Assembly (NCBI GenBank): GCA_027451885.1
Contig: DAIDHX010000081.1
Location: forward strand, 1 to 53,418
DNA from: Planctomycetales bacterium
GTDB taxonomy: Bacteria > Planctomycetota > Planctomycetia > Isosphaerales > Isosphaeraceae
DNA length: 53,418 nt
Reading direction: 5' to 3'
The translations under genes were made by a program, and so were the position numbers. Of the stretch, positions 5,985-13,367 are shown piece after piece (within the stretch, counting starts at the first letter, position 1; each line of letters starts with the position of its first letter). Under the pieces are notes generated by a model. The model had not been told where the DNA came from, ran no database searches, and saw nothing but the letters and a program-made list of their open reading frames with translations.

Positions 5985-6053
5985 GGGCCTGGCTGCGGTT
6001 TCCACGGGCGCAATGGCTTCGGTTCGCACGGGCACAATGGCTTCGGTTCGCCG
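5985..6053 (+). repeat. 23-24 bp periodic repeat, block A1 (3 units)
   Basis: Three head-to-tail units place the core GGCTTCGGTT (first unit GGCTGCGGTT) at 5991, 6015 and 6039, that is every 24 bases. The unit is close to GGGCACAATGGCTTCGGTTC. The same core occurs in reverse orientation in the gap at 51.7-51.95 kb. Units are degenerate and have no unique spacers, so this is not a CRISPR array. Confidence 0.75.
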
Positions 6054-6166: not shown

Positions 6167-6305
6167 GGCGCGGTGGCTTCGGTTCGCACGGGCACGATGA
6201 CTCCGGTCTGCCTGGGCCGTTGGCTTTGGTCTGCGCGGGCCGTTGGCTTTGGTCTGCCTGGGCCGTTGGCATTGGTTCACCCAGGCGCGGTGGGTTTGCT
6301 TTGAT
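6167..6305 (+). repeat. 23-24 bp periodic repeat, block A2 (6 units)
   Basis: Six degenerate units with cores GGCTTCGG, GACTCCGG, GGCTTTGG, GGCTTTGG, GGCATTGG and GGGTTTGC at 6175, 6199, 6222, 6245, 6268 and 6292, spaced 23-24 bases. Units four to six share GGGCCGTTGGC at their starts. It continues the family of block A1 after a 110-base interruption. Confidence 0.75.
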
Positions 6306-6762: not shown

Positions 6763-7731
6763 CTATCCCACGAGGCGCGAGCTCAATCTCCGATAGAGCT
6801 CGACCGACGCATCAACCTCCGCTTTTCGAATGGAGACGCTCTCGACGTTGATGCCGATTGGCAAGTGCTTTTCGCGCGCATAGTCCTGTACGTCGGTAAG
6901 TACGTTTTCGCAGAGCTCGATCGAGCGCATGAGCGTATCGGAAGAATGGCGAAGCTCGTTCTCTAACCACCGCGGGAACGAGATGCCGAGCCACTTCATG
7001 AACTCGAGCGTGCGTACCGAGCCGCAGGGCGAGAACGTCAGCACCACCGGCACGGGGGATCGGCCGCATGCCTGCAAAGACAGGGCGTAATCGGAAAGCA
7101 ACGATCTCGTGGAAGCGGCATCGTACACCGATTGCGTTATGAAGAAACGGCAGCCGGCATCCTGCTTGGCGAGCATTCGCTGGTGTTCATCTTCTTTTGC
7201 GACGTGGCGTTCAGCGATGGCGATACCACCAACGAGCAGGTTGGGAGCGGCGTGCGCGAGCGTATAGGCCTCTGCCAGCGGCAAACCCGCTGCGCCCGAC
7301 CGACCACGTGGCGCACCAACGAAGACGCTGAGGCGCCGGTCGGCCGCGGCCCGTACGGTGTCGACCCAGGCTGAGAACACTGCACGCGAATGCGCGCCTA
7401 CGCATCGGTAGACGATTTTCGGAATCGCGAGTTCCGCAAGTGCGTCGTACGCGTAAACCTCTGGGTCGATGGTGGGTAGAAACGGAAAGGGGCGTGCCTG
7501 ACCGCTTCGTCCGGGCTCGTCCTGGATGTCGTAGACAACGAGTCCGTCAGGCGCGAGCATGCGCAGTCGTGACACCTGCTGGGCCGCGATCTCGCGCACA
7601 CGCTCGGCTTCAGTCGCGCGCTTCGGCGGCGCGATTCCATAGAGACGAATCCCGCCGAATCCGCGGTCCAGCTTTTCGAAGAGCGCATTCAACGTCACGC
7701 TCGCAGCATTGAGGTTGCTCTGTCCGCCCAA
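6763..7731 (-). CDS. Methylenetetrahydrofolate reductase-like protein
   Basis: About 322 residues with the TIM-barrel signature of the MetF family: GGIRLYGIAPPKRATEAERV near the N-terminus, GLVVYDIQDEPGR, then DAGCRFFITQSVYD, which matches the conserved G..FFITQ..FD strand of MTHFR. It probably binds FAD and a folate or related pterin, but it is divergent and its true substrate is unknown. The start is uncertain: the listed start is a TTG seven codons after the in-frame amber stop of the CsrA-receiver gene; a GTG at 7698 begins nearer the homologous region. Neither has a strong ribosome site. It is last in a minus-strand row after the CheB/CheR kinase and the CsrA-receiver protein, so translational coupling is likely. 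Confidence 0.75.
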   Translation of the reverse strand: MGGQSNLNAASVTLNALFEKLDRGFGGIRLYGIAPPKRATEAERVREIAAQQVSRLRMLAPDGLVVYDIQDEPGRSGQARPFPFLPTIDPEVYAYDALAELAIPKIVYRCVGAHSRAVFSAWVDTVRAAADRRLSVFVGAPRGRSGAAGLPLAEAYTLAHAAPNLLVGGIAIAERHVAKEDEHQRMLAKQDAGCRFFITQSVYDAASTRSLLSDYALSLQACGRSPVPVVLTFSPCGSVRTLEFMKWLGISFPRWLENELRHSSDTLMRSIELCENVLTDVQDYAREKHLPIGINVESVSIRKAEVDASVELYRRLSSRLVG

Positions 7732-7752: not shown

Positions 7753-8463
7753 CTACTGGAGGCTTGCCTGCATCGCATCCCAGAGCTGGCCTGGGTTGAG
7801 CGGCTTTGAGAACCAGGCGTCGAAACCTTCTGGTCCTTCTGGGATGTCGAATTCGTGAGGGGACATGCTGCTGACCAGGAACACCTTGAGACCTGAAAAG
7901 CGCTCGTCCTGGCGAATTCTGCGCAGGGTTGCGGGGCCGTCGCAACGGGGCATGGCCATGTCCATCAGGACCACGTCCGGGCGTCCACCGGCGTCCAGAT
8001 AGGCGAGCGCGTCTTCACCATCCCCGACCTGATCACATTTGCATCCGTTCATACAAAGCACACCCGCGAGCAATTCCCGCTCGTTGATGTCGTCCTCGAC
8101 GATCAGGGCGTGGCAACGCCGTGCCGAGGGGGCCTTGCGGCGGTGGTTTTTTTCCAGGAGCTCGAGCGATTCGAGGGCAAGATTGAGGCTGGCGACGGCG
8201 TCCCCAGCGCGTCCGACCTCGACCTGTTTCCTGGCCAGGTAGACGGCGAGATTGGCCCGGCTGAGCACATTGGCGAAATCGTGGTCGGCCCTGGCATCGG
8301 AGGCGGGCGACTCCGTGCGCAGTTCGTCATCGCTCATGGAGACTCGGCCCTTCGACTCGATTCCAAGGCGGAGAGCGCCTTCCACGAAGTCGAGAAGCTC
8401 GAGCGAGACGCCCAGGGTGGGAAAGTGAATTCGCTCTTTGAGGCGGCGTGTGATGACCAGCAT
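7753..8463 (-). CDS. CsrA-domain/response-regulator receiver fusion
   Basis: A 236-residue protein. Residues 1-43 (starting MLVITRRLKERIHF, then GALRLGIESKGRV) fit the beta-strands of CsrA, the mRNA-binding carbon storage regulator, including the Arg-6/Arg-7 pair of strand 1. The strand-5 VHREE motif is replaced by SMSDDE, so the arginine equivalent to Arg-44, important for RNA binding in CsrA, is missing. Residues 55-105 form a helical linker (FANVLSRANLAVYLARKQVE). Residues 113-236 are a receiver domain with the acidic pair in VEDDINERELL, phospho-Asp in VVLMDMAMP, Ser in FLVSSMS and Lys in FSKPL. It sits 116 bases downstream of a hybrid kinase on the same strand, its likely phosphodonor. 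The output may be RNA binding, protein binding, or neither. Confidence 0.82.
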   Translation of the reverse strand: MLVITRRLKERIHFPTLGVSLELLDFVEGALRLGIESKGRVSMSDDELRTESPASDARADHDFANVLSRANLAVYLARKQVEVGRAGDAVASLNLALESLELLEKNHRRKAPSARRCHALIVEDDINERELLAGVLCMNGCKCDQVGDGEDALAYLDAGGRPDVVLMDMAMPRCDGPATLRRIRQDERFSGLKVFLVSSMSPHEFDIPEGPEGFDAWFSKPLNPGQLWDAMQASLQ

Positions 8464-8579
8464 GGCTGGGTCTCCATACCCTTTTCGGGCGACGTACGGT
8501 CCTCCGACGCTGAGGCTACGTAATCACAATTGGGATTGTCAATGGTGTGGTGGGATTGCGCAGCGGCGGATCGGGCTTA

Positions 8580-11500
8580 TCAGGCGTGCGTGGGCTCGTC
8601 CGGCGGGGTCCGAGCGGCCTTCTGGTTGGCGGCGTATTGCAGCAGTCGCTCCAGGTCCTGGATGCGGAATGGTTTGGTCAGGTGTTCATTGAACCCCGCG
8701 GCGGAAGTGGCTGCGCGGTCTTCTGGGCGGCCATAGCCCGTAAGCGCGATCAGGTAAGGCTGCGGCTCCTGGCGGCGGCGGATCTGCCGCGCAAGCTCAT
8801 ACCCGTCCATGCCCGGTAGGCCGATGTCGAGCAGGGCGGCATCGACCGTCTCCTCCTCCAGAACCTTGAGCGCGGCTCTGCTATCGGAAACGGCACGGAC
8901 GGTGTGCCCGGCCAGGCGCAGAAGCCCGACCAGCGAGACCTGGATGTCTGCATCGTCCTCGACGACCAGGCAATGCAAGGAAAGGTCAGGGGCGAGCGCG
9001 GCCGGGGCCTGGTCCCGGCTTGCGTTGGCCAGGACCGCGAGCGCGGCGGGATCCGCGATCAGCGGCAAGCGGACGACGAACTCGCTCCCCTTGCCCGGCC
9101 CCGCACTCAGGGGCTCGACCGTCCCGCCATGGAGCTCCACGATCGTGCGCACCAGGGTCAGGCCCACGCCAATGCCGCCATCGGCCCGCGCGAGCGTGGC
9201 ATCAACCTGGACGAACGGCTCGAAAATCCGGGGAAGCATCTCCGCCGACAGCCCGACTCCCGTGTCGCGCACCCGGATCACCGCCTGACCGTCCTCCCGC
9301 AAGACGCTGTACCAGACCCTCCCTCCCGCGGGGGTGTACTTGGCGGCGTTTCTCAGGAGGTTGACCTGGACTTGCTGGAGTCGGTCTGGGTCGCCGAGCA
9401 CGGGGAGCGGCTCTTCCCAACTTTGCTCCGTGAGGATCACTCCGGTTTCTTGGAACCACTGCTTGACCTCCTCCAGCACGTCCTGAGTGATGGTTCTGAG
9501 GTCGAAAATCGAGCGGCGGAGCTCGAGCTTGTCGCGGCTGAAGCGTGCGACTTCAAGCAGGTCGTCCACCAGCCTGGCCATGTGCCTGGCTCGCCTGTTG
9601 ATCACGCCGACCCAGCGGTCGACGTCGGAATCCCGCACAGTGTTCCGCAGCGCCATCTCGGCGGCGTTCAAGACCGCGGCCAGCGGGTTGCGAAGCTCGT
9701 GCGAAAGCATGGCGAGAAATCGGTCGCGCTGCTCGACCGACTCGCGGGCCATCCGCTCCGCGTCGCGGATCTGGGTGACGTCGGTCTTGATCCCGCCCAC
9801 TCCCGTGATCCTCCCCGCCTCGTCGCGGAGGGGAAACTTGACCGAGAGAAAACTATGCGGGCCGTCCGCAAGCGGGATCGTGACCTCGTCCTGCACTTCC
9901 TCACCCTCACGCAGCACCAGATCGTCCCGGCTGGTCACGCGATCGGCGACCTCGTGCGGAAACAGGTCGTAGGCCGTCTTCCCGATCGGGTCCTGGCCCA
10001 CGGCCCGCTTGAATGACTCGTCGCACAGCAAATACCGGCCGCGCAAATCTCGGATAAAGATCCAGTTGGGAGAATTGCGCAGAATCCCATTGAGCTGCTC
10101 GTCCTTGCGCCTGGCTTCCCCCTCGGCCCGCTTCACCCCGCTCAAATCGACCAGCGTTAAAACCACCCCATTGCTCGCCAGCCCAGCCCGATAAGGCAGA
10201 ATTCGCAGCAAAAACCAGTGCCCGCGCCGGTCTCGGACCTGGCGCTCGAGCGAGGCCGATTTCTCGAGAACCTGCCGCAGATCGTCCATCAGGCCGATAT
10301 GATCAATCGTGTACGTGAAATTATCAATCCTTCTCCCAACGTCCTGCGGCATCAGGTTGAAGGTCTCGGCGATCTTGGGGGTGAACTTGCGGATGAGAAG
10401 ATCGCGGTCGAGAAAGATGGTATGGACTTCGGTGCTGATCAGCAGGTTGTCCATGTCGGTCGTCAACTCGGTGAGCTCGGCGATTTTTTTCTGATATTCG
10501 GCGTTCACCGTGTAGAGTTCTTCGTTGACCGAGTGCAGCTCTTCGTTGGTGCTTTGCAGTTCCTCGTTGGCGGCGGTGAGCTCCTGATTGGTCGCCTGGA
10601 GCTCCTCGTTGCTGGTTTCCATCTCCTCGATCACCGCCTGGAGATTCTCCTTGGTGTAGCGGAGTTCCCCTTCCAGGGTCAGGATCTGTTCGCGGGAGGC
10701 CTGGCTGAGGTCGATCGCCCGGGCGGTTTCACGGACGGAAGGGGCTTCGCCAAGCTCCTCGAACTGGACGAGCGCGTGGCTCACGCTGGCGCGCCGGTTG
10801 CGGATGGGGCGGACGGTGAGGTTGATCAGGCGTTCGTCCCCTGATTGGCCCACGCGCAGACTCTTGTAAGCAACCCGCGCAAGCTCCTTGAACACGCGAG
10901 GCATGGCGCCGGTGAGCGCAGTGCGGACCTCGGGATCAACGAGCTCCAGAAGCTCGGTGGTGACGCGTCCTTCGCGGAATCGCAGATATTTGCTGGCGCC
11001 GCCGAACGACTGCACGACCTCGCCACGGTCGTTGACGAGCAAGCCGGGGGGCATGAACTCATCGAGCAGCGCGTCGTACATTCCGGCCAGGTGCAGATCG
11101 ACGGTTGAGGGGGCGGTCCCGGTGTGCTCGCGGCGAAGTGGGGTGAGCTCGGTCACCCGCAGGTCGCTCACGAGGCGAACATCGCGGCGTTTGCGATAGA
11201 ACTTCCAGCGCGGGTCGAGGGGCTCGAACTCGTCACTGACTTCCCCTGGGGTCTCGCTGGGGCCGAGAAACAGCACGCCGCCGGTCTTGAGCGAGAAGTG
11301 GAAAAGCGAGAGCACCCGCTTCTGGGCGGGGGGCTGAAGATAGATCAAAAGATTCCGGCATGTTACCAGGTCGAGCTTGGTGAACGGGGCATCCTTGAGC
11401 ACGTTGTGCTGGGCGAAGACGATCGACCTGCGGAGTTCGGCGGAGACCTGGAAGCCGCCGGCGATGCGTGTGAAGAATCGGTTCAGGCGTTCGGGTTCGA

Positions 11501-12659
11501 TTTCGGCGCAGGCGGCCTCGGGATAGATCCCCGCGCCCGCGATGTCGAGCGAGGCCCGGTGGGCATCGGTGGCGAAGATTTTGACGGGCCCGGTGCGGTT
11601 CAGGGTCTCCATGCCTTCGCGCACCAGGATCGCGAGCGAGTAGGCTTCCTCGCCGGTGGCGCAGCCGGCGACCCACGCCCGGAACTCATCGCCGGGCGCG
11701 AGCCTGCCGATCAAGACGGGGAGCACATCGCGGCCGATGCGGGCGAACGCCTCCTCGTCGCGGAAGAAGCGGGTCACCCCGATGAGCAGATCCTTGTAGA
11801 GCAGATTCAATTCGGCCGGGTCTTCGACCAGGCGGCGGGCGTACTCGTCGAGCCCGGGAACATCTCCCAGCGAGAGCCGCCGCTCGAGCCGCCTCGCCAC
11901 GGTGTCTGGCTTGTAGTGCGAGAAGTCGATCCCGTAGGCGTCGCGGAGCAAGCGGAAGACGGCCTCCACGCCGGTTGGGGCGGGGGTGGGCGAATCGGGC
12001 TCGGCGTGCAGGCTCCGCGCGTGCCGCAAAAGCGCATTGGGAATGGCCTCCGGCGCGAGCGTAAGATTGGTCGCGCCGGTGTCGATCGCGTTGCGGGGCA
12101 TGCCGTCGAACTTGGCCGTCTCGGGATCCTGCACGATGACCAGGCCGCCCGCCTCATGCACGTCCCGCACGCCGCGCGAGCCGTCGCTGCCGGTACCCGA
12201 CAGGATGATCGCAACCGCGCGGTCGCGCGCTTCCTGCGCAAGCGACCGGAGCAGGTGGTCGATCGGCAGCGTGATGAGCTGCGACGGGTCCTTGTCCGTC
12301 AGCAAGAGCCGCCCATGCCGGATAATCATGTCCTTGCGGGGCGGGATCAAAAAGACCGCGTCGGGCTGGAGCGGCATCCCGTCTTCAACCACCCGGATCG
12401 GCAGGTGGGTCCGCCGGCCCAGGATGTCGTCCGTCAGGCTCTTGTAGTTTGGCGAGAGGTGCTGCACAACCACAAACGCCATCCCGGTGTCGGTGGGCAT
12501 CGCCTCGAAGAGCCGCTCAAGCGCCTCCAGACCGCCGGCGGACGCCCCAATGCCGACCACGAGGAGCGGGGTCGGCCCCTCCTCGCGCCGCTCCACCGCC
12601 GCCTCGCCTTCGCCGCCGTCGTCAATGTCGGAAGTGAATTCGTGATCCGCGCTCGCCAT
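8580..12659 (-). CDS. CheB-CheR-PAS hybrid histidine kinase with receiver domain
   Basis: About 1359 residues. In order: CheB methylesterase (VVGIGASAGGLEALERLF with the catalytic Ser, VVQHLSPNYKSL with His, SGTGSDGSRG with Asp); CheR methyltransferase (YKPDTVARRLERRL, SAM-binding FRAWVAGCATGEEAYSLAI); a long coiled coil rich in NEELQ/NEEL repeats; two PAS regions; HisKA with H-box MLSHELRNPLAAVLN; HATPase (LLRNAAKYTPAG, RVRDTGVGL, GVGLTLVRTIV); and a C-terminal receiver (ALLDIGLPGMDG). All key residues appear intact. CheB and CheR normally modify chemoreceptor glutamates; fusions of this type act more broadly in sensing. No chemoreceptor, CheA or CheW lies nearby. I prefer the ATG at 12659, 6 bases after GGAG; a longer frame reaches an ATG at 12782 but adds non-conserved residues. 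Confidence 0.9.
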   Translation of the reverse strand: MASADHEFTSDIDDGGEGEAAVERREEGPTPLLVVGIGASAGGLEALERLFEAMPTDTGMAFVVVQHLSPNYKSLTDDILGRRTHLPIRVVEDGMPLQPDAVFLIPPRKDMIIRHGRLLLTDKDPSQLITLPIDHLLRSLAQEARDRAVAIILSGTGSDGSRGVRDVHEAGGLVIVQDPETAKFDGMPRNAIDTGATNLTLAPEAIPNALLRHARSLHAEPDSPTPAPTGVEAVFRLLRDAYGIDFSHYKPDTVARRLERRLSLGDVPGLDEYARRLVEDPAELNLLYKDLLIGVTRFFRDEEAFARIGRDVLPVLIGRLAPGDEFRAWVAGCATGEEAYSLAILVREGMETLNRTGPVKIFATDAHRASLDIAGAGIYPEAACAEIEPERLNRFFTRIAGGFQVSAELRRSIVFAQHNVLKDAPFTKLDLVTCRNLLIYLQPPAQKRVLSLFHFSLKTGGVLFLGPSETPGEVSDEFEPLDPRWKFYRKRRDVRLVSDLRVTELTPLRREHTGTAPSTVDLHLAGMYDALLDEFMPPGLLVNDRGEVVQSFGGASKYLRFREGRVTTELLELVDPEVRTALTGAMPRVFKELARVAYKSLRVGQSGDERLINLTVRPIRNRRASVSHALVQFEELGEAPSVRETARAIDLSQASREQILTLEGELRYTKENLQAVIEEMETSNEELQATNQELTAANEELQSTNEELHSVNEELYTVNAEYQKKIAELTELTTDMDNLLISTEVHTIFLDRDLLIRKFTPKIAETFNLMPQDVGRRIDNFTYTIDHIGLMDDLRQVLEKSASLERQVRDRRGHWFLLRILPYRAGLASNGVVLTLVDLSGVKRAEGEARRKDEQLNGILRNSPNWIFIRDLRGRYLLCDESFKRAVGQDPIGKTAYDLFPHEVADRVTSRDDLVLREGEEVQDEVTIPLADGPHSFLSVKFPLRDEAGRITGVGGIKTDVTQIRDAERMARESVEQRDRFLAMLSHELRNPLAAVLNAAEMALRNTVRDSDVDRWVGVINRRARHMARLVDDLLEVARFSRDKLELRRSIFDLRTITQDVLEEVKQWFQETGVILTEQSWEEPLPVLGDPDRLQQVQVNLLRNAAKYTPAGGRVWYSVLREDGQAVIRVRDTGVGLSAEMLPRIFEPFVQVDATLARADGGIGVGLTLVRTIVELHGGTVEPLSAGPGKGSEFVVRLPLIADPAALAVLANASRDQAPAALAPDLSLHCLVVEDDADIQVSLVGLLRLAGHTVRAVSDSRAALKVLEEETVDAALLDIGLPGMDGYELARQIRRRQEPQPYLIALTGYGRPEDRAATSAAGFNEHLTKPFRIQDLERLLQYAANQKAARTPPDEPTHA

Positions 12660-13367
12660 CGATCGCTCCAATTCAGCCTCTGGATCCGGAAGTGCGGGCC
12701 GATTTGCCAACCGGCCGAACAGCGGCAGACGCTCGCGATAGGAAATGAAGCGAGCGGCCGTCGTGATGTCGAGGACTCGCATCCTGCCCAGGAGGGCACG
12801 CGTCTCAGGGATGCAAGGGATCCACTGGCCCTGCTACCTGTGAAAGGCCTTCATCTTGTGGCCCCACGGGTGAGAAACGGGGGCGGCCATCCTCAGCGCC
12901 GCCTGTCGTTGGCAGTACAGTGTCATGCTCGAGCGTATGGGCATCTCCTCTACTCAACCAGGATTCGCGCTCAGGATCAAGGAAAACTCGGCAGCCCGAT
13001 GCCAGAAGAACCATGCGGCGGGCGGTCGTCCCGGGGCGGCAGCGCGCCCCGCGCAAACCAGCCAGGCCCCGCCCATTCCGCCTGAGCCGCCCCAGCGGCG
13101 GTGGCAGACAGCCTTCAATTTTATTCGAACATACGTATGTTTATTGCTATGGTTGCAGGTGATGCGTGCAGGATCGCGCCCGGAATGAGGCCGGATTTCG
13201 CTGCGCGGAGTCGAGCGGGATCGCCATGTGAATTCATAAGCCATGAGCGAGGCAGGGGATGGGGATCGGGGTTGAAACAATGCCGCGCCCCTCTCGCCGC
13301 TGGGTTGGCGGTTTGCGACAATGGGGTCGAGGCAGAACCCTTATTTTCGTCTCCCCCCGCGCACCCG
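12660..13367. other. Divergent gap between kinase and VOC genes
   Basis: About 600-700 bases depending on the kinase start. Open frames here are shadows without ribosome sites or known domains. The only structured element I see is a 14-bp perfect palindrome in an AT-rich patch at 13128-13141. Confidence 0.5.
13128..13141. promoter_or_regulatory. 14-bp palindrome AACATACGTATGTT
   Basis: A perfect palindrome inside an AT-rich island (about 13118-13150) of an otherwise GC-rich gap. It looks like an operator for a dimeric regulator. The outer GAAC...GTTT half-sites recall SOS boxes but the spacing (8 bases) differs from the Gram-positive GAAC-N4-GTTC box, so I do not name a regulator. Which flanking gene it would control is unclear. 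Confidence 0.35.

Follow-up and report, generated by a model that had tools for sequence, protein, structure and literature searches.

The stretch of DNA analyzed here, referred to as the window (53,418 nt), carries on its minus strand a fusion gene and, 116 bp upstream of it, a gene for a hybrid histidine kinase. The fusion open reading frame (7753..8463) encodes 236 residues, starting with an ATG that corresponds to CsrA Met1, and comprises a CsrA-like domain, a two-helix hairpin and a receiver (REC) domain. The kinase frame (8580..12782) encodes 1400 residues with the Pfam architecture CheB-CheR_N-CheR-coiled coil-PAS_10-PAS_4-HisKA-HATPase-REC; position 12659, earlier taken as its boundary, is an internal Met at codon 42. 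Pfam matches in the kinase included CheB (E 1.5e-55), CheR (E 2.2e-48), HATPase (E 4.9e-26), REC (E 1.6e-22) and HisKA (E 4.8e-16, and 7.5e-17 in a second search). The HisKA (DHp) domain, with the motif SHELRNPL, is encoded at 9543..9731, and the C-terminal receiver (Pfam Response_reg), with a candidate intermediate Asp, at 8643..8969, both on the minus strand. The intergenic gap (8464..8579) contains a GGAG stretch, resembling a ribosome-binding site, 8 bases 5′ of the fusion ATG.

On the same strand, 21 bp 3′ of the fusion, there is an MTHFR-like gene of 322 codons (6763..7731; NF006396, E 3e-6; Pfam below cut-off), possibly co-transcribed with the fusion. It was set aside as a part of the system, no counterpart being found adjoining other fusions. 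Two short tandem arrays, with 24-bp and 23-bp units and 89% matches, occupy positions 5990-6051 and 6205-6276; they lie in a seemingly gene-poor stretch, one frame of which gives FGSHGHN-type repeats.

The CsrA-like domain corresponds to residues 1-48 (8320..8463, minus strand). Taken alone, the window protein scored 15.6 bits (E 0.016) against Pfam CsrA (PF02599), under the gathering score of 27 bits, and a contig scan of genomes with this protein as the only query gave no matches, the window copy being divergent. Relatives were first gathered by a search with residues 1-115 across 59 related genomes, and alignments of 13 and then 28 members were built; an 18-row alignment was set aside as too diverse. 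Pfam CsrA was matched by all 13 members of the first alignment (best E 1.1e-15), with 56.4 bits for the CsrA part of the relative L074, and TIGR00202 (csrA) by 27 of the 28 aligned relatives (E ≤ 1e-5). The family profile, run against the PDB, retrieved RsmE, CsrA and RsmA chains (best E 1.7e-11), and the AlphaFold model of residues 1-115 gave CsrA/RsmA chains as the top 12 Foldseek matches (probability 0.75-1.00, E 0.15-0.87). Judged by sequence comparison, the CsrA identity of the N-terminus is doubtful from the window protein alone and not doubtful at the family level. So, the profile search that the sequence-only reading had named as a refuting test is nearly failed by the window protein alone; family-level homology holds. 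The genome of the window contains in addition eight ordinary CsrA genes.

The fusion receiver comprises residues 120-231 (7771..8106, minus strand; outer limits, residues 118-235) and matched Pfam Response_reg with 60.6 bits (E 2e-16). Residues D124, D168 and K220 are all present in the window protein; the phospho-acceptor Asp168 (codon at 7960-7962, minus strand) is found in 37 of 37 sequences and K220 in 36 of them. The claim of an intact receiver was thereby confirmed by both the Pfam match and these residues. Together with the match of the family to CsrA models and with the model fold finding CsrA first, this bears out the proposal that the locus encodes a CsrA-receiver fusion.

Within the family, the window copy is an outlier in its CsrA domain. 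Of the 37 sequences, only that of the window protein lacks any of Ala37, Pro38 and Arg45 (the counterpart of Arg44 in E. coli CsrA), with Ser, Lys and Asp in their places, respectively. The Arg44 equivalent is kept in 36 of the 37 members, and Arg6 is invariant. In E. coli CsrA, Arg44 and Arg6 are important for RNA binding, as is Leu4 of strand 1; strand 1 of the window protein keeps Arg6 and has Ile at position 4. Also kept are the reading frame, Met1-Leu2, Phe14-Pro15 and Gly34. A frameshift as the source of the lost Arg44 motif was rejected, as no alternative frame restores it. The CsrA domain of the window shares 46-50% identity with relatives from Isosphaeraceae, which are at least 71% identical among themselves; for its receiver the figure is 75-80%, as it is between those relatives. 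On a fixed tree, the terminal branch of the window measured 1.14 substitutions per site in the CsrA domain, 0.40 in the hairpin and 0.16 in the receiver, compared with 0.22, 0.24 and 0.15 in L058, a comparable relative; the lengths are rough, since the domains are short. By these figures, the CsrA domain of the window evolves at roughly 7 times the rate of its receiver. Because of this rate and of the loss of Ala37, Pro38 and the Arg44 equivalent, RNA binding by the window copy appears doubtful. Its receiver and hairpin stay constrained, and its RNA surface apparently does not. The earlier suggestion of a phosphorelay acting on RNA therefore fits the family better than the window copy, for which it is weakened.

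Between the CsrA and receiver domains lies a hairpin (residues 53-107; 8143..8307, minus strand) with an H-box-like His, which had been overlooked when the protein was described as a CsrA domain joined to a receiver, a description that holds for both domains named. AlphaFold predicts two helices in it (residues 53-82 and 86-107; pLDDT ~90). The candidate phosphotransfer residue His61 (codon at 8281..8283, minus strand), in the sequence HDFANVL (HxLRNxL in the family), is the hairpin column of lowest entropy, present in 36 of 37 aligned members, and is followed by Leu67, Leu76 and Asn65, the latter conserved in 34 of 37. Distant members display the H-box-like motifs HDLRNRLN or HELRNRLH. The residue after the His, as a rule acidic in kinases, is variable across the family.

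The likeness of the hairpin to DHp domains was evaluated by profile and structure comparisons. The hairpin profile, aligned by hhalign to a HisKA profile of 28 kinases of the same loci picked by their H-box motif, gave a His-on-His match (Prob 96.3, E 1.8e-9) with a score of 44.6, compared with 14.2 or less in 60 column-shuffled controls, which preserve column content, not order. The match thus shows ordered similarity, not function. A profile from only two kinases had given no match with the hairpin profile, and the comparison was redone with the 28. When isolated hairpins were run against Pfam, HisKA was the commonest match (5 of 19, best E 7e-4), each TPR family appearing in fewer; the family hairpins stayed under the HisKA cut-off, the window hairpin gave no Pfam HisKA match, and the second helix resembles TPR hairpins. 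In VIA-align, the DHp domain of DesK came first (Z 8.5, a weak value for helices, as unrelated helical bundles reach similar ones), with HK853 and PhoR also listed; the phospho-His of DesK (His188) and that of HK853 fall about one residue from His61, as read from the aligned ranges. Against the PDB, the hairpin profile matched mostly TPR/PPR designs, EnvZ and CpxA reaching no better than E 0.6, and this search was not counted as proof. Families of the Spo0B/ChpT type were absent from the Pfam and PDB match lists of the hairpin, and a kinship with them may nonetheless exist. Searched in 8 genomes, the hairpin profile matched the fusions alone, which marks it as a dedicated module.

The association with kinases was considered in flanks of up to 20 kb around relatives and, for named relatives, of up to 13 kb, 39 loci being counted after contigs seen twice were merged. 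A histidine-kinase gene was adjacent to the fusion or within a few kb of it in 31 of the 39 loci, in about 18 separate clades as estimated from the tree, close pairs such as L074/L075 not being independent. The arrangement varies: the kinase is upstream on the same strand in the window, L058, L066, L072, L077, L080 and L090, convergent in L062, L073, L074, L098 and L100, and divergent in L063, L065, L067 and L078, while the fusion comes first and the kinase after it in L064, L070 and L094. The linked kinases also differ in type, including CheB-CheR hybrids, DUF4118-HK-REC (L063, L064) and multi-PAS-HK-REC (L067). In the linked loci inspected, an intermediate receiver was present, mostly at the kinase C-terminus and otherwise as a separate gene. 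The coupling of fusion to kinase, which had been deduced from the gene order of the window only, is thus reinforced by linkage across many genera. No kinase was seen in the flanks of the other eight loci (L060, L061, L076, L082, L095, L096, L097 and L099), which include two Gemmata MAGs with an intact fusion.

Some of these loci have features of their own. In L057, a DUF4118-PAS-HK sensor kinase is followed by a REC-ANTAR gene (9854-10792, minus strand; ANTAR E 5e-20) placed between it and the CsrA fusion, so that one kinase locus contains RNA-binding response regulators of two kinds; L056 and L089 are alike by position only, and the three belong to one Isosphaeraceae clade. L079 and L080, on one contig and about 11 kb apart, are two fusions flanking several CheB-CheR kinases, which suggests module duplication. 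L082 (9989-10822) is a degenerate fusion without the hairpin His in register; it has also lost Asn65 along with the Lys and the first acidic residue of the receiver, and has no kinase nearby; this joint loss, a single case, fits the idea that hairpin, receiver and kinase work together.

In the genome of the window, four CheB domains were found, only one of them in a CheB-CheR hybrid kinase, which is the neighbour of the fusion. Of the roughly 29 HisKA proteins of this genome, just 6 have a C-terminal receiver (matching open frames). The four Hpt matches of this genome are all within proteins of 759-1689 residues, and no free-standing Hpt was found in it. Three of the four are probably CheA proteins, because their contigs also carry CheB genes.

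Hybrid kinases that carry a receiver generally depend on a His phosphotransfer step. From the three-part architecture, the near-invariant hairpin His, the intact receiver chemistry and the repeated linkage to kinases with an intermediate receiver, all of them plain results of the computation, we infer every phosphate transfer and the RNA output of the fusion. The family would consist of planctomycete response regulators of CsrA-DHp-like hairpin-REC architecture, dedicated to the neighbouring kinase and acting in a four-step phosphorelay, a model to which we give an even chance of being right. With the overlooked His taken into account, the likely chemistry shifts from a two-step to a four-step relay. 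The kinase would autophosphorylate on the HisKA His and pass the phosphate to the Asp of its own C-terminal receiver, from which it would go to His61 of the fusion hairpin and finally to Asp168 of the fusion receiver. In this way, the hairpin would supply the His phosphotransfer step in a genome without free-standing Hpt. Since CsrA is an obligate dimer, it would hold two hairpins next to each other, and these might pack as a Spo0B-like four-helix bundle. Depending on its state, the Asp168 receiver may then change how the CsrA dimer is placed or how firmly it grips RNA, and thereby how well target mRNAs are translated or how stable they are. In the species of the window, receiver and hairpin are kept but the second half of the RNA-binding surface is eroded, and the fusion may act there by binding RNA weakly or by contacting a protein.

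Alternative explanations differ from this four-step model at several points. It is possible, though on the unlikely side, that signalling has just two steps, the kinase phosphorylating Asp168 directly, with its own receiver being regulatory and the hairpin a dimerizing spacer. Many hybrid kinases do act also directly on partner receivers, and the hairpin, a short one, scores under the HisKA cut-off; nevertheless, a pure spacer is not expected to retain a single His in 36 of the 37 sequences amid variable neighbours, nor to align His on His with HisKA. The conservation of Asn65 could also mean that the hairpin works like a phosphatase or as a docking element, its HxxxN resembling the E/DxxN/T motif of HisKA phosphatases and acting on the attached receiver. 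This seems improbable, as conservation does not extend to the acidic residue of the motif, and it is the His that is the most conserved hairpin residue. That the fusion answers to an unlinked kinase, the adjacency being just historical, would accommodate the eight loci without a kinase nearby, the two Gemmata MAGs among them, but we consider it quite unlikely when the linkage persists across some 18 clades with changed orientation and kinase types, and when the single CheB-CheR hybrid kinase of the genome of the window stands beside the fusion.

Another alternative concerns only the species of the window, in which the CsrA domain could have decayed, so that the fusion would serve as a dimeric receiver or hairpin protein with no output on RNA. 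This deserves serious consideration, even if we do not favour it: the protein is the sole one of 37 to have lost A37, P38 and R45, and its CsrA branch is long compared with that of its receiver; on the other hand, the frame and the residues from Met1-Leu2 to Gly34 listed above are kept, and faster change may mean a new specificity. Such a decay is compatible with the four-step model for the other family members. As a long shot, the fusion of the window might be a phosphorelay-switched CsrA antagonist under the CheB-CheR hybrid kinase; it would pair with an ordinary CsrA protein, of which the genome encodes eight. This pairing could occur because strand 1 and the dimer core are kept while the Arg44 equivalent is gone, and the heterodimer would lose one of the RNA-binding sites of a CsrA dimer.

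When compared with known systems, the family shares with CsrA/RsmA/RsmE (PF02599, TIGR00202) the fold and the Met1 start, along with Arg6 and, in all but one member, the Arg44 equivalent; it differs from them by the added hairpin and receiver and by a one-residue insertion with an FP motif in strand 2, while the window copy differs further by the absent Arg44 equivalent. With DHp/HisKA domains (DesK, HK853, PhoR) the hairpin has in common the H-box-like HxLRNxL with the His in register, but the Pro of the H-box is replaced by Arg, Gln, Ala and others, the acidic residue after the His is variable, and the scores are below the Pfam cut-off. Spo0B, ChpT and other DHp-derived phosphotransferases are alike in having a helical hairpin with a conserved His, a putative dimeric four-helix bundle and no need for ATP binding; unlike them, the fusion hairpin lacks a following ATPase-like domain and is joined to CsrA and REC, and transfer through it is only proposed here. 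The neighbouring kinase has the full architecture of CheB-CheR-PAS-HK-REC hybrids and is in itself nothing unusual.

Concerning prior literature, PMC2222644, in a passage citing Galperin 2006 (J Bacteriol 188:4169), lists CsrA as an RNA-binding output of response regulators, and on the account of that passage the pairing of CsrA with a receiver has been catalogued since 2006. REC-ANTAR proteins and this CsrA output class resemble the fusion in the joining of a receiver to an RNA-binding domain; the fusion family has, for its part, a C-terminal receiver, a DHp-like hairpin in between and a conserved kinase linkage. In the open-access literature, no paper on the CsrA-hairpin-REC fusion itself was found, nor any account of its hairpin, its kinase linkage or a function for it. 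A 2025 review (PMC12471899) counts CsrA of E. coli among the orphan response regulators; that protein has 61 residues and no receiver, so the listing gives no support for a CsrA-REC protein.

The idea that similar fusions occur in other planctomycetes proved right: no fewer than 37 full-length homologues exist, and Planctomycetota is the only phylum in which they have been seen so far. They come from Isosphaeraceae, Gemmata, Gemmataceae, Planctomicrobium, and Pirellulaceae and Planctomycetaceae MAGs. Counting matches that span the hairpin, about 20 genomes carry the fusion in a sample of 392 from the phylum; all 18 full-length matches of a pattern search were planctomycetes, the patterns being derived from close relatives.

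CsrA is usually controlled through decoy small RNAs or through protein partners such as FliW and CesT. If the four-step model is true, a dedicated sensor kinase would reach CsrA through a His and a receiver located in one chain, which would amount to direct phosphorelay control of translation. The hybrid kinase would gain its missing phosphotransfer step, and it would be explained why the hairpin His is the most conserved residue between the CsrA and receiver domains.
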